Below are positions 1,011 to 13,518 of a stretch of DNA of 47,647 nt, one piece after another. The notes under the pieces are model-generated. The model did no database searches. It saw nothing but the letters and a program-made list of their open reading frames with translations, and was not told the origin of the DNA. A program made the translations under genes and the position numbers. How positions within the stretch are numbered: position 1 is the first letter of the stretch; the number at the start of each line of letters is the position of its first letter. Source of the DNA: Bacillota bacterium (GTDB lineage Bacteria; Bacillota; DTU030; DUMP01); the NCBI GenBank assembly GCA_012837285.1, contig DURJ01000131.1, forward strand, positions 1 to 47,647, read 5' to 3'.

Positions 1011-2054
1011 GTCAGCCCTTTCTTAACCTCGATACAAACCCCATATGTCATTTCCAGCGATAGCGTAAAGATCCAGCTTCCCTTGCGTTATTCCAAAGCC
1101 TTGGATTTTGACAAATCGTCGGTTTCTGTGTATCTGAACAACATACCGATAACCGACAAACTGCTGGAGCATGAGCGGGCCGAGAACGATGAATTGATTG
1201 TAGACATACCAAAGGAGTTTTGGGGAGAAGACTTCTTAGAGCTGAAGCTAATCTTTTACCTGGAACCTTACGGGTTCGATTGTACCAACTGGCGGCACGG
1301 CGACATATGGGCCCTAATTTCCAATGATGCTGGGTTTGATATTCCTCAGGAAACGGTCAGGGATAGGTATTTTGAGTATTACCCGGGACTGTTCATCAAA
1401 GACGGTACCGTAGATGACCTGTTGGTGGTTCTACCCCAACAAGCAAACGGAAGTTACTTAACCATGGCAGCCAACATTATGGCTTTTATTGGCCATAACC
1501 TGGACGAAGTTAATAATATAAAGGTAATAAGGAGCTCGGAATTTGAGCGGACCGATAAACAACAGAACCTGATAATAATCGGAACTCCGCCAGATAACAA
1601 CGCCATCAGGCTTATTAACGACCATTTACACCTTAGATTTAATAAGGCCGGGGATAAGTTTGAAATAAGTGGCGCGATTGTCATAGTGCCGGAATACAGT
1701 AATAATCTGGCTTCGATACAATTGCTGGCCTCCCCTTTTGATAACCAGCGGCACCTGATGGTGGTAGCAGGTACGGTCGGGGAGAGCTTGACTGCAGCTG
1801 AAACTTACTTAAAAGACTTCGGCTTTTACACCAGACTGAGCGGCGACGGAGTAGTTATCGACCAAGACGGGCATATCCAGACAGCGTACTTTGTGAGCCC
1901 GAAAGACACCAGGGTAGAGGATAAAGCCATCCGGTCTCGATACCTTTCGCTGAAGTGGCAAGACAATCCACAGCTCATAATGTATGTAGCCTTCTTTTTC
2001 ATGTTGATAGTCACCGGGATCTATGGGGTGATAGTGGTAACCAGAGGGAAGTAA
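1011..2054 (+). pseudogene. BcsB-like protein, C-terminal half only
   Basis: The frame is open from a stop at 1008 and gives about 347 residues. It resembles the second half of cellulose synthase regulatory subunit BcsB: a carbohydrate-binding-like beta segment (LYLNNIPI-like region), a flavodoxin-like domain, and one C-terminal membrane helix (NPQLIMYVAFFFMLIVTGIY, about 24 residues from the end). Full BcsB proteins are roughly twice as long and start with a signal peptide, which is missing. TTG at 1083 is the first conventional start, but similarity seems to begin upstream of it (SSDSVKIQLPLRYS), arguing for 5' truncation. No bcsA is nearby. It could instead be a short stand-alone BcsB-like protein with an unrecognised start. 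Confidence 0.6.
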
Positions 2055-3797: not shown

Positions 3798-4499
3798 ATG
3801 TTGCCACGACGGGGGGACGGTGGTCGGGGCCGGGGTAGAGCAGCAGTGCTCAGGAACAGTATTTTTTTTCAACTTCGGGATGACATTCTTAAAGGTCGGT
3901 TTGAACCGGGTGAGAGCCTGGTGGAACTGAAGTTGGCTGCTCACTACGGTGTGAGTCGGACGCCGGTTAGGGAAGCGTTAAGGCAATTGGAGCTGGAAGG
4001 GTTGGTAAGATATCTGCCGAACCGCGGCGTGTTGGTAGAGGGAATAACGGCTGAAGATGTGGAGGATATCTTTGTTATTCGTGAGCACTTAGAGACGTTG
4101 GTAGCCAACTGGGCGGCGCAGCGGGTTCAGCCGGAAGAGATAAGGAAAATGCAGGAAGTTTTGGATCTGCAGGAGTTTTATACTACTAAGGACGATATTG
4201 AGCAAGTGACAGTGCTTGATACGGAATTTCATCGCCTGCTGTTGGATGCCAGCCGCAGCAAGTCTTTACGCTATGCTTTGGGGAGTATGTTAGATTATGT
4301 GGAGCAGGCTCGATTTCGCTCGCTGCGGGTCCCTGGGCGGATCCACGACTCGATGCGGGAACACCGGAGTATCCTCGAGGCGGTGGCGGCTGGCCAGGCC
4401 GAACTGGCTGGGGAGCGAATGGCCGAGCACATGCGACGAGCCCGACAAAACGTGTTAAGCTTCACTTCGGAAGGAAAAGAGAACAGCAGAAGCAACTAA
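3798..4499 (+). CDS. GntR-family (FadR subfamily) transcriptional regulator
   Basis: A 233-aa regulator. Residues about 18-85 form the GntR winged helix-turn-helix; the signature VSRTPVREALRQLELEGLV is clear. Residues about 95-225 form the all-helical FCD effector domain, with the metal/ligand residues expected for it: Asp and His in DTEFHRLL, His in EHRSILEAV and His in MAEHMRRA. FCD regulators usually respond to small organic acids or related metabolites. The N-terminus carries an extra Arg/Gly-rich stretch (residues 4-15). GTATAC palindromes at 3313 and 3340 are probable binding sites. It is followed by its own terminator. Confidence 0.9.
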   Translation: MLPRRGDGGRGRGRAAVLRNSIFFQLRDDILKGRFEPGESLVELKLAAHYGVSRTPVREALRQLELEGLVRYLPNRGVLVEGITAEDVEDIFVIREHLETLVANWAAQRVQPEEIRKMQEVLDLQEFYTTKDDIEQVTVLDTEFHRLLLDASRSKSLRYALGSMLDYVEQARFRSLRVPGRIHDSMREHRSILEAVAAGQAELAGERMAEHMRRARQNVLSFTSEGKENSRSN

Positions 4500-4501
4500 A
4501 T

Positions 4502-4525
4502 GCCTGGGGTGACCAGGCCTTTTTT
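4502..4525 (+). terminator. Intrinsic terminator after the GntR gene
   Basis: Stem GCCTGG (4502-4507) pairs with CCAGGC (4513-4518), followed by CTTTTTT, immediately after the GntR stop codon. Confidence 0.85.
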
Positions 4526-4599
4526 ATACTTAGACCAGGAGAATTGGGGCAATATATGACCGCTGTCTTCTTGCAAAGCTAGAACGGGGAGGGTTTACG

Positions 4600-7500
4600 C
4601 TGGATATCAAGGAATTGCGTAGTAGGGAGGAGCAATTTCAGGCAATTGTGGGCCGGGAGCTGAAGAAGCTAACGCGACATAAAACCATCGACGTTGTGGT
4701 GGGGGTGCCTTTTTATAACGAGCAGGAAACCCTGGCTCAAGTGGTGACTACAGCGGCCCAGGGGTTGAGCCCGTTTATTAATGTTCGGCCCCTGGTGGTG
4801 TGCGTGGGTGATCCGGCCGGGGCCCAGGCGTTGGCATCCCTGGAAGGGCTTAAAACAGGTATGCCTTGTCACGGGTTTTTGTTGACGGACGGCGTCAACG
4901 GACGGGGCTTCAGTATCCGGGCCATACTGGAAATTGCTCGGGAGCTAGCCGCCGATGTGGTGTTGTTGGAGGCAGACCTAAGGCGGAAGGGCGATCAAGG
5001 CTTTAACCCTTCTTGGTTGGAGCGCTTGTATTTCCCCCTGTTGCAAGATTACGATTTAGTCAGTGGTTGTTTCCGTCGTCATTACTTCGAAGACCCCACT
5101 GGGAGCTTGTTTGTGGGGCCGATGCTGGAGAGCTTCTTTGGCTTAAGGTTGCGCGATCCTCTCAGCGGTGTGTACGGAATTTCCCGCCGGCTGGTAGAAG
5201 ATTATTGTACCGATCTGGACTGGTGGTACGGTGGTGCCGGCGGGTATGGTGTTGATCCTTGGCTGTTGGCCCAAGCGGTAGTGTGGGATAAGAAGATTTG
5301 CGAGGTGAGTTTGGGAGCCAAAATTGGTCCTCCGGCTTTGAGCAAACGGTCTTACGTATTTAAGCAGCTCGCGCTGTCGCTGTTTGATTGTATCAAGGTA
5401 AATGAGGACTACTGGCTCAAATCCCAACTGATCTTGAAACAACCGGACATCTATGGCTTGGAAGCCCGGGATCGGGCGCCGGAGCTCAGCTGTCATCTAG
5501 GGGATCTTGTGGCCAGCTTCACACTTGGTTTTGATCAGTATAGTTCCTTGCTGGCTCGGGTACTGCCGGAAGAGAATTATGCAGCGGTGGAAAAGGTAGC
5601 TCTAACGGCTGAAACAGAGCCAGAATTCAGTTCTAAACTGTGGAGTGCGGTGGTTTACAGCTTTCTTCAGACCTATGTCTTCGCCGACGGCGTGGAAGCA
5701 GAGGATATCATGGAAGGACTGAGGATCGTCTATGACGGTCGCTTAGCTGCTTTTATTGCCGGCGTGAGTAAATTTTCTTACCTGATTAGTGAAGTAAAAC
5801 ACCTGGATAAAGAAGAGCTCACATACAAACAAGTTGAACGGCTGCGCGGAGATCAGGTGGCGGAGTTCTTAGACGGCAAGAGCGGATTCATTAAGACCTG
5901 GGTGGAACGAGCGGCGGAAGTTCGACCGGTGATCACTCCCTTGGACTACCTGGAATTCATTCCCGGGGTACCGCTGGCCTTACCTAAGGACCTGACCGGT
6001 ATTGGTGGGTTACCAGTTAGGGCGAAAACAGTGTTTCGTCGTCTAGAGGAACGCTATAGCGACGCCTTTCACCGGTTTATTCATGCTGGCTTGGGTCTGG
6101 ACGCTGCTCTAACGTCGGCTGAGCTGGGCGCAGAGCTAGAAGGGTTCATGGCTGAGTTAGAACAGATGGCGGACAGACTGGTGCCGGGGAATTTAGCCAC
6201 GGCCGCAGGAACCAAACAGGCGGTGGAGCGAGTCTTCGAGCTGATCCCCCACCAGAAAATTTTAGCGGTGAAAGAAGAGATATTACGTCAACTGCTGACG
6301 GAGTTTCCGCCCTTGAACCTGCTGATCCAACTGGGCTACTCCAGCACCGGCGAACTGCTCAGCCACTTTGAGGTGCGGGATGCGCTGGCCTTGGCCGGTA
6401 TCAGCGAGGAACGGGAGTATACGGACCGTCTGCTCTGGTGGCTGGGGGATAACTTGCGTCCTGACAGTTTGGAAGAAGTGAACATGAGGCCGCTGGTATT
6501 TACTCCGGAGACCTTTCCTGGAGTGGGGGAGCTAAGGGACATATCTCATTTTGACCGGCTGGCCGCCCGACTTACAGTAAGTAATCTGCCTAAGGGACTA
6601 GGCGGCTCCTTTCCAAAATTGCGTTACTTTACCCATGTGGCCAAGATTTTGGTGGAAGCGGAGCATTATTCTTTTATCTGGCAGGCGTATGCCCGGGAAC
6701 GCAAAGGGTTTGGACTTAAACTGGTGAACTCAGTTATTAAGCACCGTGGGCGAGAGGTTTTCTCGGCTGCTAACATCTTTCAGAATTGGCATCAACGGGA
6801 GCTGACTCAGCGGGTGCAGTTGTTGGCGGAGCAACTGAAAACCAAAAACCAGACCAAAGAGGCACGGCTGCTGGAATTGATGGCCGAGGGCTATGGCCTC
6901 AGCCTAACTTTGGGCGACGGGACTTTTGTTCCTTGCTCGGCTTGGACCTGGGCCAGCTATAGTTTTCGCGGCGGCCAAGGAATTCCCACTCCGCTGTCAG
7001 TACGGATCGAGCGCGATTGGTTTCACCACGATTTACTAGAAGAAATATATAAGGAGATGGGCTTTCGGCCCCAGGATATCATGGTGGAAGCCATTAGGCG
7101 CATTGGCGAGGGCCGGGAGGCCACCAGTCTGCTCGATGCTGTTTTGCGCGGTCCAGCGCAGGAAGAAGTGGTTTTGGTTCAAGATGTGGATTCGTACCCG
7201 CCGGCTGGGCAGCTAATACGCCACGAACTGAATCCCTTACTGGAACCCATTGAGGAGCATTACTGGGAAAGCCGTTACGTGCTCAATGCCGCTACGGTGC
7301 GCTTAGACGGGAAGGTGTACGTGCTTTATCGAGCCTTCGGCGAGGATGAAATATCTCGGATCGGACTGGCAATTTTCCACGGGGCTCGGTTGTTAGAACG
7401 GTTGCCGGAGCCGGTGTTCGGCCCGGTGATCCCAGAGGAAAGCCGCGGTTGTGAAGACCCGCGGGTGGTTGTGATTGATGATCGACTGTACATGGTTTAT

Positions 7501-8169
7501 ACGGCCTACAATGGAGTTATTGCCCAGGTGGCAGCGGCGGCCATCGGTATCGATGACTTTTTGGCCCGTCGATTCCAGCGCTTTGAGCACTTGGGCTTGG
7601 CTTTCCCCGGCCTCTGGGACAAAGATGCGATCTTGTTTCCGGAACAGGTGGGTGGGCGTTGGGTAATGTATCACCGGGTAGAGCCCAGCATCTGGGTGTC
7701 TTATGCCAGTGAGCTGCAACTGCCGTGGCCCAAACAAAATCATAAGATTATCATCGGGCCGCGTTCAGGGCTGATGTGGGATTCGCTTAAGATAGGGTCC
7801 GGCTCACAGCCAATTAAGACCAAGTACGGTTGGCTCCTTATTTACCATGGGGTTAGCAACACCATGGTGTACCGGTTAGGAGTTATTCTGGTGGATATGG
7901 AGGATCCGGGGCGTCTGCTGTATCGTTCGCCCAATCCCATCTTGTCTCCGGAGACGGAACTTGAGGTGGGTGCTCCGGGACGCTCGTGGGTACCCAATGT
8001 GGTCTTTACTTGCGGGGCCGTACCGGGGGCAGATAAAGAAGTGCTGGACGATAATGACCAGGTGCTTTGCTACTACGGTGCCTCCGATACTTATCTTTGC
8101 CTGGCTTCGGCCACAGTAGCCGAGCTAATCCCGGAGGCAGTGCGCCGGCGCATTGGCCGGAGACGATAA
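4600..8169 (+). CDS. Large fusion: GT-A glycosyltransferase plus GH130-type domain
   Basis: About 1,189 residues. Residues 1-300 look like a GT-A glycosyltransferase of the glucosyl-3-phosphoglycerate/mannosylglycerate synthase kind: VVVGVPFYNEQETLAQVV nucleotide-binding segment, an acidic LEADLR motif in the DXD position, and DPLSGVYGISRRL plus YGVDPWLLAQAV further on. Residues about 300-870 are an alpha-rich region I do not recognise. Residues about 870-1180 match GH130 mannoside phosphorylases/mannosidases: RYVLNAATVRLDGKVYVLYR, then GCEDPRVV with the candidate catalytic Asp, KDAILFPE and LLIYHGV. Start choice: TTG 4617-frame start at 4615 is too far from the strong GGGGAGGG site (4586-4593); in-frame CTG 4600 sits 6 nt after it. 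Known GH130 enzymes cleave or phosphorolyse beta-mannosides, so the fusion may make or remodel a mannoside or compatible solute; this is inference. Confidence 0.8.
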   Translation: MDIKELRSREEQFQAIVGRELKKLTRHKTIDVVVGVPFYNEQETLAQVVTTAAQGLSPFINVRPLVVCVGDPAGAQALASLEGLKTGMPCHGFLLTDGVNGRGFSIRAILEIARELAADVVLLEADLRRKGDQGFNPSWLERLYFPLLQDYDLVSGCFRRHYFEDPTGSLFVGPMLESFFGLRLRDPLSGVYGISRRLVEDYCTDLDWWYGGAGGYGVDPWLLAQAVVWDKKICEVSLGAKIGPPALSKRSYVFKQLALSLFDCIKVNEDYWLKSQLILKQPDIYGLEARDRAPELSCHLGDLVASFTLGFDQYSSLLARVLPEENYAAVEKVALTAETEPEFSSKLWSAVVYSFLQTYVFADGVEAEDIMEGLRIVYDGRLAAFIAGVSKFSYLISEVKHLDKEELTYKQVERLRGDQVAEFLDGKSGFIKTWVERAAEVRPVITPLDYLEFIPGVPLALPKDLTGIGGLPVRAKTVFRRLEERYSDAFHRFIHAGLGLDAALTSAELGAELEGFMAELEQMADRLVPGNLATAAGTKQAVERVFELIPHQKILAVKEEILRQLLTEFPPLNLLIQLGYSSTGELLSHFEVRDALALAGISEEREYTDRLLWWLGDNLRPDSLEEVNMRPLVFTPETFPGVGELRDISHFDRLAARLTVSNLPKGLGGSFPKLRYFTHVAKILVEAEHYSFIWQAYARERKGFGLKLVNSVIKHRGREVFSAANIFQNWHQRELTQRVQLLAEQLKTKNQTKEARLLELMAEGYGLSLTLGDGTFVPCSAWTWASYSFRGGQGIPTPLSVRIERDWFHHDLLEEIYKEMGFRPQDIMVEAIRRIGEGREATSLLDAVLRGPAQEEVVLVQDVDSYPPAGQLIRHELNPLLEPIEEHYWESRYVLNAATVRLDGKVYVLYRAFGEDEISRIGLAIFHGARLLERLPEPVFGPVIPEESRGCEDPRVVVIDDRLYMVYTAYNGVIAQVAAAAIGIDDFLARRFQRFEHLGLAFPGLWDKDAILFPEQVGGRWVMYHRVEPSIWVSYASELQLPWPKQNHKIIIGPRSGLMWDSLKIGSGSQPIKTKYGWLLIYHGVSNTMVYRLGVILVDMEDPGRLLYRSPNPILSPETELEVGAPGRSWVPNVVFTCGAVPGADKEVLDDNDQVLCYYGASDTYLCLASATVAELIPEAVRRRIGRRR

Positions 8170-9429: not shown

Positions 9430-10347
9430 ATGAAAGTCCATGTAGCCCAGGTGGTGAGGAGCCAAATTGCTGTTTGGTCCCGGCAGGAAGGCAAAGAAAT
9501 CGGAGGGATCTTGCTGGGACGGGTGCAGCGCCGCGGTGACTCGGTGCGGCGGGTACGGGTGGAAGCGGCTGTTTTGGCCGCAGGGGCGGAGTCTGTGGGC
9601 AGCAGTATCCGCCTGACACCGGAACTGGTAGCTGCCCTGACCCGCCAGGCCAAGGCGGAGTATCCTACATTTGAAGTGGTAGGCTGGTTTCATACCCACC
9701 ACGGCTTAGGGGCGTTTTTGTCCGGCTATGATACCACTGTGCATAAAGAGCACTTCCCTTCACCGTGGCAGATAGCTTTGGTGTTCGACCCTGTGGTGGG
9801 GAACGAGGCTATCTATATTAATCACGGAGATGAACTTGTTCCTTATACGAAGGAAAGCGAGGACTATTATGATCTGATACCTTTGTCCGGTAGTCGCTAT
9901 CGTTTGGTTGACCCTAAGCGGTTTCTAGCAACGGTAGCATTGCTGGTGGTTGTGGTGGCGGCTGCCACCGGTTTGTGGCGTTGGTTTAGGGAACCGTCGG
10001 CGCCGGTTACCCCTGGAGGACCACCGGCGCAGCAGACCGAAGCCCAGCCACAAGATCCGGCTACGTCCCAACCGTCGGGAGACGGAGTGCCGGCTCCGGG
10101 GTCCGAAACCGGGGAGCAGTTGGGGCCGGGAGATACTGTATACACTGTGCAACCAAATGATACCCTCTGGGGGATTAGCCAGCGATACTATGGTCGAGGA
10201 TCGTATTTTGGGTTGATTTTAGAGCATAATCAAATCTCCAATCCAAGAGAATTGGTACCGGGACAGGAATTGTTACTGCCGCCGCTGCCGGACCCACCGA
10301 CGGCAGAAAGGTCGGAGTCGGCGGCAAGCACCCATGGCGGTAACTGA
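9430..10347 (+). CDS. JAMM/MPN metalloprotease-like protein with TM helix and LysM domain
   Basis: A 305-aa protein of three parts. Residues 1-150 form a JAB/MPN domain with a complete JAMM zinc site: Glu23 (KEIGGILLGR), His88 and His90 (FHTHHG), Ser98 and Asp101 (LSGYD). Residues about 166-185 are a membrane helix, followed by a Pro/Gln-rich linker to about 232. Residues 237-284 are a LysM domain (YTVQPNDTLWGISQRYYG, ending LVPGQELLLP). With no signal peptide before the JAMM part, the likely topology is catalytic domain inside, LysM outside on peptidoglycan. JAMM enzymes cleave isopeptide or peptide bonds. The target is unknown. It is followed by a terminator at 10370. Confidence 0.88.
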   Translation: MKVHVAQVVRSQIAVWSRQEGKEIGGILLGRVQRRGDSVRRVRVEAAVLAAGAESVGSSIRLTPELVAALTRQAKAEYPTFEVVGWFHTHHGLGAFLSGYDTTVHKEHFPSPWQIALVFDPVVGNEAIYINHGDELVPYTKESEDYYDLIPLSGSRYRLVDPKRFLATVALLVVVVAAATGLWRWFREPSAPVTPGGPPAQQTEAQPQDPATSQPSGDGVPAPGSETGEQLGPGDTVYTVQPNDTLWGISQRYYGRGSYFGLILEHNQISNPRELVPGQELLLPPLPDPPTAERSESAASTHGGN

Positions 10348-11658: not shown

Positions 11659-11770
11659 TCATAAGTGGGAGGATTAACCTTTGCTTCAGCGAATATAATA
11701 TTAGGTGTGCCTAAGGGCCGTTTGGGCACCCCTAGTAAGGGATTGGATTAGGCGGAGGGGGGTGTTAGGT

Positions 11771-12541
11771 ATGCAGATCGATTTATCGGTAAATACAGCA
11801 CTACCGTTGGCTTTAGAAGGAATTGAGCTGCGCTTTGGAGCAGACGTGGAGCCGGTGGCCCCGACGGTACGTTTAGCCGGGGAGATGCGCGAACTGTTTT
11901 ATGCACCGGCCGTGGTGGACTCTAAGCAGCAGCTTTATTTTATGTATCACGGCATTTGTCTAAACAAAGACCAAGAGTTGATTGAGCGTCATGGCTTGCG
12001 GTATGACATTACTATTATGCCACCGGCTCTCATTGGGCCGGAGTACGTAAAGACCGCCGGGCATTACAATCCGGCGGCAGCGGGGACAGAAGAGACCTAC
12101 CCGGAAGTGTATGAGGTGGTTCAAGGGCAGGCCCACTTTTTGCTGCAGTATCTTGATCCGGAGCTTAACTCAGTGGAAGAAGTAGTCCTGTTTGAAGCCG
12201 GTGCCGGGGATAAGGTCATTATCCCGCCGAACCGGGGCTTGGTGATAATTAACCCGGCTAACGAAACACTGGTGACCGCCAATTGGGTGGCAGACGGCTT
12301 TTCTTCCTCGTCGGAGCTTTTTGTTAAGTTGAGCGGGGCGGTGTATTACGAGGTGCGGGTGCAGGGGGTATCCACCTTTATTGCCAACCCCCACTATGAT
12401 TATGTTCCTCAGCTACAGCGCCGACTGGCGCGCCAGTATAGGGATTTAGGTTTGGTAAAAGGGGTTACACTATACGAAGCGTTCATCGATAGTCCTGAAC
12501 TTTTCCGCTATCTTACCGATCCGAGCTTGTGCCCGTCTTAA
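11771..12541 (+). CDS. Cupin-type glucose-6-phosphate isomerase homologue with altered metal ligands
   Basis: A 256-aa protein of the archaeal-type (cupin) phosphoglucose isomerase family. The cupin core is KTAGHYNPAA, then YPEVYEVVQGQAHFLLQ and KVIIPPNRGLVIINP. The family metal site is normally GHxH, a Glu in the EVY motif and a His after PP. Here His98 and Glu112 are kept, but the second His is Asn100 and the late His position is Leu157. Isomerase activity is therefore uncertain. The ATG at 11771 has a G-rich ribosome binding site; a longer in-frame start at 11705 lies in unrelated sequence. It directly precedes pfkA, fitting a role in upper glycolysis. Confidence 0.82.
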   Translation: MQIDLSVNTALPLALEGIELRFGADVEPVAPTVRLAGEMRELFYAPAVVDSKQQLYFMYHGICLNKDQELIERHGLRYDITIMPPALIGPEYVKTAGHYNPAAAGTEETYPEVYEVVQGQAHFLLQYLDPELNSVEEVVLFEAGAGDKVIIPPNRGLVIINPANETLVTANWVADGFSSSSELFVKLSGAVYYEVRVQGVSTFIANPHYDYVPQLQRRLARQYRDLGLVKGVTLYEAFIDSPELFRYLTDPSLCPS

Positions 12542-12558
12542 GACCGAGGTGATGATTA

Positions 12559-13518
12559 TTGCAAAAAGCAGCGGTTTTAACCAGCGGGGGCGACGCGCCC
12601 GGCATGAATGCCGCTATCCGGGCGGTGGTTCATCAGGCGACAGTACACGAACTAATGGTGGTAGGTATCAGGCACGGGTTTGAGGGGTTGTTAGAGCGGG
12701 ACTTCGTGGAGCTGAATTTGAGCTCGGTGGACGGTATTATCCAGCATGGCGGTACGATCTTACGGAGTGCCCGCTGTGACCGCTTTTTTACACCGGCCGG
12801 ACAGGATCAAGGAGCAGCCAACCTAAAAGAGGCCGGAATACAAGGCCTTATTGTTATCGGTGGAGAAGGTACCTATCGCGGCGGGGCGGCCCTGGTAAGC
12901 CGAGGTGTTTCGGTGGTGGGGATACCCGGTACTATCGATAACGATATCGCGTGTACGGACTCTAGCATCGGTTTCGACACGGCGGTAAACACAGTGGTTG
13001 AGGCCATGAACAAGATTCGCGATACTGCCACCGCTCACGAACGAACCTTTGTGGTGGAAGTGATGGGACGAGCCTCGGGACACATTGCCTTGATGGCCGG
13101 CTTGGCAGGAGGGGCGGAGTCTATTTTGGTTCCGGAGATCGAGTTTGATCTAGACGATGTCTGTCGGCACCTCAAATGGAGTGCAGAGCGAGGCAAGGTG
13201 CACAGTATTATCTTGCTAGCTGAAGGGGTAGCTTCGGCGTATGCCCTGGGCGAAGAGGTGAAAAAGCGAACCGGCTTTGACACCAGAGTTATTGTGCTGG
13301 GTCATCTGCAGCGGGGAGGTGCACCGACGGCTTTCGACCGCATCTTGGCCAGTCGGATGGGGGCCCGGGCGGTGGAAGTGTTGCTCGCGGGTGGACAGGG
13401 GACCGCCATGTCTCTGGTTGCCGGGCAGATAAGGGCGGTACCTTTTTCGCAGGTGTTTGCCGCTACCAAAGAGTTGGATCGCTCACTTTATGATTTGGCG
13501 GCGATTTTGGCTCTCTAA
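12559..13518 (+). CDS. pfkA: 6-phosphofructokinase
   Basis: A 319-aa PfkA-type enzyme that phosphorylates fructose 6-phosphate. Start TTG 12559 with a GAGGTG site. Visible motifs: TSGGDAPGMNAAIRA at the N-terminus, PGTIDNDI with the catalytic Asp127, MGRASGHIA and GHLQRGGAPTAFDR. Gly104 and Gly124 point to ATP rather than pyrophosphate as donor. The nucleotide/magnesium motif is GGEGTYRGG, so the usual Asp103 is Glu. It starts 17 nt after the cupin isomerase homologue and is probably cotranscribed. A GC-rich hairpin follows the gene. Confidence 0.95.
   Translation: MQKAAVLTSGGDAPGMNAAIRAVVHQATVHELMVVGIRHGFEGLLERDFVELNLSSVDGIIQHGGTILRSARCDRFFTPAGQDQGAANLKEAGIQGLIVIGGEGTYRGGAALVSRGVSVVGIPGTIDNDIACTDSSIGFDTAVNTVVEAMNKIRDTATAHERTFVVEVMGRASGHIALMAGLAGGAESILVPEIEFDLDDVCRHLKWSAERGKVHSIILLAEGVASAYALGEEVKKRTGFDTRVIVLGHLQRGGAPTAFDRILASRMGARAVEVLLAGGQGTAMSLVAGQIRAVPFSQVFAATKELDRSLYDLAAILAL

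Follow-up and report, generated by a model that had tools for sequence, protein, structure and literature searches.

A single gene in the analysed DNA, a 47,647-nt contig of a Bacillota bacterium (hereafter the window), encoded a protein of 1,189 residues in which a distant relative of the GT81 glycosyltransferases, a middle domain and a GH130 domain were joined (Table 1). With about even confidence, we read the chain from its sequence as an alpha-transferase coupled to a reversible beta-1,2-mannoside phosphorylase, whose acceptor the transferase would prime. No description of such a fusion was found in the open-licence papers or profile libraries searched. If the reading is true, a retaining glycosyltransferase and an inverting glycoside phosphorylase, naturally fused and of single origin, would show a cell coupling the chemistry of nucleotide sugars to that of sugar phosphates within one polypeptide. 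It would also give a handle on a question raised by the Thermoanaerobacter work, namely where the beta-1,2-mannosides in such bacteria come from. The finding further points to a conserved domain of approximately 470 residues that lacks a fold assignment, and to a conserved set of mannose genes whose alpha/alpha-barrel member is uncharacterised.

Table 1. Features of the fusion gene and its upstream region (window positions; residues numbered from the CTG start).
Feature	Position	Strand	Remarks
GntR/FCD regulator gene	3798..4499	+	Adjoins the fusion gene on its upstream side; kept at this place across the window's family (cluster c10)
Intrinsic-terminator-like hairpin	4502..4518	+	Followed by CTTTTTTATA; between GntR gene and fusion gene; consensus match only
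Ribosome-binding site GGAGGG	4588..4593	+	6 nt 5' of CTG; same motif before the starts of family orthologues
Fusion gene	4600..8169	+	1,189 aa; CTG start, stop 8167-8169; open frame and full-length homologues
GT81-like GT-A glycosyltransferase region	4600..5799	+	Residues 1-400; catalytic core about 28-290
E41	4720-4722	+	Mapped glycosyltransferase residue
R102	4903-4905	+	Mapped glycosyltransferase residue
E124	4969-4971	+	Mapped glycosyltransferase residue
D126	4975-4977	+	Mapped glycosyltransferase residue
D219	5254-5256	+	Mapped glycosyltransferase residue
Orphan middle domain	5800..7203	+	Residues 401-868; found only in the fusion
Most conserved middle stretch	6940..7023	+	Residues 781-808, AWTWASYSFRGGQGIPTPLSVRIERDWF; low entropy, on a par with GH130
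GH130 domain, beta-1,2-mannoside phosphorylase type	7204..8166	+	Residues 869-1189
D953, putative catalytic Asp	7456-7458	+	Alignment
K1008, putative beta-1,2-specificity Lys	7621-7623	+	Alignment
R1026, basic phosphate-site candidate	7675-7677	+	Alignment
K1064, basic phosphate-site candidate	7789-7791	+	Alignment
H1083, basic phosphate-site candidate	7846-7848	+	Alignment

The single open frame of the initial annotation was borne out over its full length, and its CTG start was right. A mechanical open reading frame finder picked TTG at 4615 as the start. In four orthologues of the window's family (L082, L083, L046 and L084), CTG occurred at the same position behind GGAGGG, and two other homologues had ATG there. 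Because of the spacing of the GGAGGG motif and the CTG or ATG at the same site in homologues, CTG 4600 is the better start on sequence grounds. Gene finders restricted to ATG, GTG and TTG shorten the gene. A chance frame or an artefactual or assembly-derived gene join was ruled out, since the whole chain was conserved in full-length homologues from 37 fetched loci, with 35–83% identity. The gene is probably transcribed on its own, as a terminator-like hairpin separated it from the GntR gene; terminator-like sites as a class, called by consensus match, numbered nine versus 5.0 expected in shuffled sequence. The GntR/FCD protein is a possible regulator of the fusion.

The presence of a GH130 domain in the same chain, as first annotated, was certain, with a match to Pfam GH130 (PF04041) at residues 893–1177 of 167.9 bits (cut-off 26; E 3.6e-49). 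Residue roles were taken from BT3780, in which Asp142 is catalytic and Lys199 sets the beta-1,2 specificity (PMC4599007). The alignment check of the catalytic residues suggested with the annotation recovered all of them: D953 corresponded to the catalytic Asp and N896, R911 and D1163 to the substrate-binding Asn, Arg and Asp, and these four residues, K1008, R1026, K1064 and H1083 were invariant in all 34 aligned fusion members. K1008, at the position of Lys199, aligned with the NKDA motif of PDB entries 7fip and 9fj8, where TM1225 has Arg. In GH130 phosphorylases, as opposed to mannosidases, three basic phosphate-binding residues replace Glu227/Glu268. Basic residues also occupied the positions of R1026, K1064 and H1083 in 7fip, 9fj8 and 9eqq, and the alignment suggests that R1026, K1064 and H1083 are the three that bind phosphate. 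The beta-1,2-mannobiose phosphorylase model of NCBIfam scored 231 bits, versus 63 bits for beta-1,2-mannosidase. Since 231 bits lay below the equivalog cut-off of 450 bits (NF052550), the domain was not filed as a beta-1,2-mannobiose phosphorylase.

The nearest solved relatives of the GH130 domain were Teth514_1789 and Teth514_1788 (2.4e-55 and 2.2e-48), a beta-1,2-mannobiose and a beta-1,2-oligomannan phosphorylase (PDB 7fip and 9fj8). They shared with the fusion the catalytic Asp, the beta-1,2 Lys, the basic residues and a gene neighbourhood of the same kind (ManC, GT4). Unlike the fusion, they are single-domain proteins of approximately 300–315 residues with neither the glycosyltransferase nor the middle domain. 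No residue that a beta-1,2-mannoside phosphorylase should have was missing from the GH130 half, which was also the most constrained part of the chain: its mean pairwise identity among members was 0.67, whereas the halves of the middle domain reached 0.37 and 0.48, the glycosyltransferase core 0.38 and the glycosyltransferase extension 0.26.

The N-terminal domain scored 13.3 bits against the Pfam GT2 model (PF00535), under the gathering cut-off of 23.3, and 17.6 bits against the NCBIfam GpgS model (NF010496), for which the cut-off is 262. The family profile of residues 1–400 matched stand-alone proteins of approximately 430 residues (E 1e-57 to 2e-60). Among solved structures, these proteins matched only GpgS, MpgS and MgS; for one of them, the values were 4.3e-8, 3.5e-4 and 5.5e-3, respectively. 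Pairwise profile–profile comparison against a true GpgS (hhalign, 89.5%, E 2e-6) gave a match that spanned the domain and kept every motif in order, including DPLSG, GYGVDPW and SLGAK in the C-terminal half. The GT-A domain of glycosylglycerate-synthase type proposed earlier thereby gained indirect support. With the assignment distant and the family cut-off missed, the domain is described as GT81-like rather than GT81. A GT-A core and the motif order NE/GKG/DxD/PLSG/GYGVE/LG were common to the fusion, GpgS/MpgS (GT81) and mannosylglycerate synthase (GT78). Differences from GpgS were an identity of only about 27% in the pairwise profile alignment and approximately 790 extra residues in the fusion.

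The best direct PDB profile matches of the domain were of the GT2 type (sll0501, 3.4e-6, residues 24–167). These matches, and the occurrence of ManC and phosphomannomutase genes near fusion loci, would suit an inverting GT2-type beta-mannosyltransferase, in which case the protein would make and phosphorolyse the same beta-mannan, like a one-chain counterpart of the mannogen cycle of Leishmania. We give this little credence, given the ordered alignment of the three C-terminal motifs with GpgS and the restriction of the stand-alone homologues to matches with GpgS, MpgS and MgS, all retaining families.

The GpgS active site contains an Asp134-Lys114-Glu232 network and the metal-binding Asp136 (PMC2581804). 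By alignment, the window protein held conservative equivalents of all four (E124-R102-D219 and D126), the K-D-E triad of GpgS being conservatively kept. The metal-coordinating His258 of GpgS was not conserved, with Gly at the aligned position of the fusion. The full catalytic set was intact in the window protein, yet in only 8 of the 34 aligned members overall, so the glycosyltransferase may be idle in many of them; the metal Asp position was occupied by another residue in 8 of 34. Within the window's family, the set was fully conserved at an overall identity of 70–83%. A loss of catalytic residues from both halves was therefore not seen, with the GH130 set invariant (34/34) and the glycosyltransferase set complete in the window protein, and the search of Pfam and NCBIfam yielded no family spanning the whole chain. 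In one subclade (L068, L069, L070, L077, L079 and L081), catalytic residues of the glycosyltransferase site, either the metal Asp or others, had been lost and the middle and GH130 domains retained; some genomes of this subclade carried a second fusion paralogue.

The contrast between an invariant GH130 site and a glycosyltransferase set that is mostly incomplete raises the possibility of catabolic salvage only. GH130 would then release mannose-1-phosphate, destined for GDP-mannose or glycolysis, from beta-1,2-manno-oligosaccharides that are either imported or internal, and the glycosyltransferase would be a decaying or purely binding module. Such salvage was proposed by Chiku et al. for a Thermoanaerobacter cluster of GH130, ManC and GT4 (PMC4264767), stand-alone GH130 genes fill the same cluster type elsewhere, and the window genome retained the fusion without ManC. 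We nevertheless regard salvage as a rather doubtful account of the fusion. Decay would not give the full conservation of the glycosyltransferase set at 70–83% identity in the window's family, a sugar transporter was absent beside the gene at the window locus, and loss of the glycosyltransferase by deletion was not seen among the full-length homologues.

GT81 and GT78 enzymes are retaining and form alpha products, and GH130 enzymes act on beta-mannosides. The two halves should for this reason handle different bonds, which makes it unlikely that the protein makes and recycles the same mannoside, as initially suggested. Priming and extension is likelier, because the glycosyltransferase half should form alpha bonds and on that ground could not synthesise the beta bond that GH130 cleaves. 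Under the preferred reading, the protein is an enzyme of mannose metabolism with two active sites, in which the GT81-like domain would place an alpha-linked sugar onto a small acceptor as a primer. The donor would be GDP-mannose where the cluster is complete and may differ in the window's species. GH130 would extend or trim this primer with beta-1,2-mannose in the reversible reaction (beta-1,2-Man)n + phosphate <-> (Man)n-1 + alpha-mannose-1-phosphate. The reaction would supply or consume the mannose-1-phosphate from which ManC would make GDP-mannose. The middle domain may bind the product or keep both sites together. In lineages with a decayed glycosyltransferase site, only the middle domain and the GH130 activity would remain.

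The suggestion that GH130 acts as a second transferase was sound in form, as characterised relatives work in reverse from mannose-1-phosphate (PMC4264767, PMC8950772); in the fusion, this direction is a prediction. A precedent is the mixed-linkage mannoside synthase Uhgb_MS (GH130; PDB 9eqq), which works in the synthetic direction from mannose-1-phosphate and caps alpha-mannosides with beta-1,2-mannose (PMC8950772). It is a single-domain protein and was more distant from the GH130 domain of the fusion (3.6e-31). The Leishmania MTP enzymes (GT108), which act on mannogen both as GDP-mannose transferases and as phosphorylases, were likened to the fusion from the literature only; they have a GH130-related propeller, joined transferase and phosphorylase functions and a beta-1,2-mannan product. 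Unlike in the fusion, both of their activities lie in one propeller domain, and GT-A and middle domains are lacking. A more elaborate form of the hypothesis, which we consider improbable, is a bacterial mannogen-like reserve system in one chain, where the GT81-like site would prime with an alpha bond, GH130 would build beta-1,2-mannan from mannose-1-phosphate and withdraw it, and the middle domain would bind the lengthening mannan or represent a third, novel catalytic fold.

The middle of the protein had been left unassigned in the initial annotation. This held, as searches of Pfam, PDB, plasmids, viral contigs and the profiles of partner proteins returned zero matches. The length of 550 residues given there was too large: homology with the stand-alone glycosyltransferases reaches approximately residue 400, which leaves about 470 residues (approximately 401–868). 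The middle domain was absent from the plasmids and the family from the viral contigs searched, and a phage or plasmid origin was unsupported. AlphaFold models from a seven-sequence input had a mean pLDDT of 39.7 for the whole chain and 40.2 for the middle domain, both too poor for use. Judged by conservation, GH130 is held most firmly by selection, and the middle stretch 781–808 is almost as strongly conserved.

Genes for a GT4 and for an alpha/alpha-barrel-like protein of approximately 340 residues (d340) were each present near the fusion at 23 of 38 loci, phosphomannomutase at 14 and ManC at 12. Across most lineages, the fusion had genes of this set in its surroundings. The link to mannose in the first annotation was upheld by ManC and phosphomannomutase genes adjoining the fusion in many genomes. 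Proteins of the d340 type mostly had no Pfam match and only weak links to alpha/alpha barrels of the GH88 or GH127 type. Of the 399 genomes, 99 encoded d340, and all but three of these (96) also matched the fusion protein, nearly always through its GH130 domain (Fisher 5e-50, uncorrected for relatedness). The d340 gene adjoined or was fused to GT4, often with ManC and phosphomannomutase (L125, L126, L128–L132, L144 and many more), and natural fusions of GT4 with d340 and of ManC with phosphomannomutase were also observed (L071:12745-15183, L072:5987-8287, L125:3721-6831 and L144:7237-9774). By its gene content, the set relates to mannose, and it is widespread.

Unfused GH130 genes often lay in the same cluster type. 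The order in L128, GH130-GH130-ManC-GT4-d340, resembled the published Thermoanaerobacter GDP-mannose salvage cluster (Chiku et al. 2014, PMC4264767), which likewise combines ManC, GT4 and GH130 and in which one hypothetical gene fits d340 by position only. Unlike in the fusion, its GH130 genes are unfused, and the cluster further includes GH5 and ABC transporter genes.

In the window's family, the fusion gene stood alone behind the terminator-like hairpin and the GntR/FCD gene. Searches of the window genome (a 95%-complete draft) found neither d340 nor ManC nor a clustered phosphomannomutase, the last giving only a weak GlmM-like match. Across the window's genus, ManC and d340 were likewise undetected and phosphomannomutase matches were weak and GlmM-like; ManC and d340 were present in some relatives. 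With these genes lacking, GDP-mannose may not be the donor in the window's genus.

The apparently separate transcription of the gene in a species without ManC, the GT81 type of its first domain, and neighbours encoding a cupin-type glucose-6-phosphate isomerase and a phosphofructokinase would be consistent with a compatible solute of the glucosyl- or mannosylglycerate type, made by the glycosyltransferase and modified or recovered by the GH130 part. Such a role seems very unlikely to us. Neither a gene for a phosphoglycerate phosphatase nor any other solute gene was seen beside the fusion, and other members of the window's family encoded a separate true GpgS. Beta-mannosides of glycerate are not among the known solutes.

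In-depth searching was confined to the phylum Bacillota, with a sample of 399 genomes. By the profile of its middle domain, the fusion was present in 48 of these genomes from 11 families, and the middle domain always occurred in the fusion context. Four further genomes matched only the first 110–120 or so positions of the middle profile, in stand-alone GT81-like proteins, and one more gave a weak match. Several genomes encoded two fusion paralogues. In a GH130 tree, all 34 fusion domains lay on one side of a single branch (support 100/99), and the data fit one single origin of the fusion. Stand-alone GH130 domains of the Teth514 type formed a separate branch.

The neighbouring genes for FtsEX, RibD and oligoendopeptidase F were ordinary and were not counted as parts of the system. 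The isomerase and phosphofructokinase genes (window positions 11705–13518, + strand) lay side by side and were conserved downstream of the fusion in close relatives. The product of a gene at 9430–10347 (+), conserved at the same place in the window's family (cluster c27), had a JAB/MPN metalloprotease-like domain at its N-terminus, a hydrophobic stretch, and a LysM domain at its C-terminus. At 1083–2054 (+), a 323-residue protein with a partial profile match resembled the cellulose synthase subunit BcsB and is possibly a truncated or short variant.
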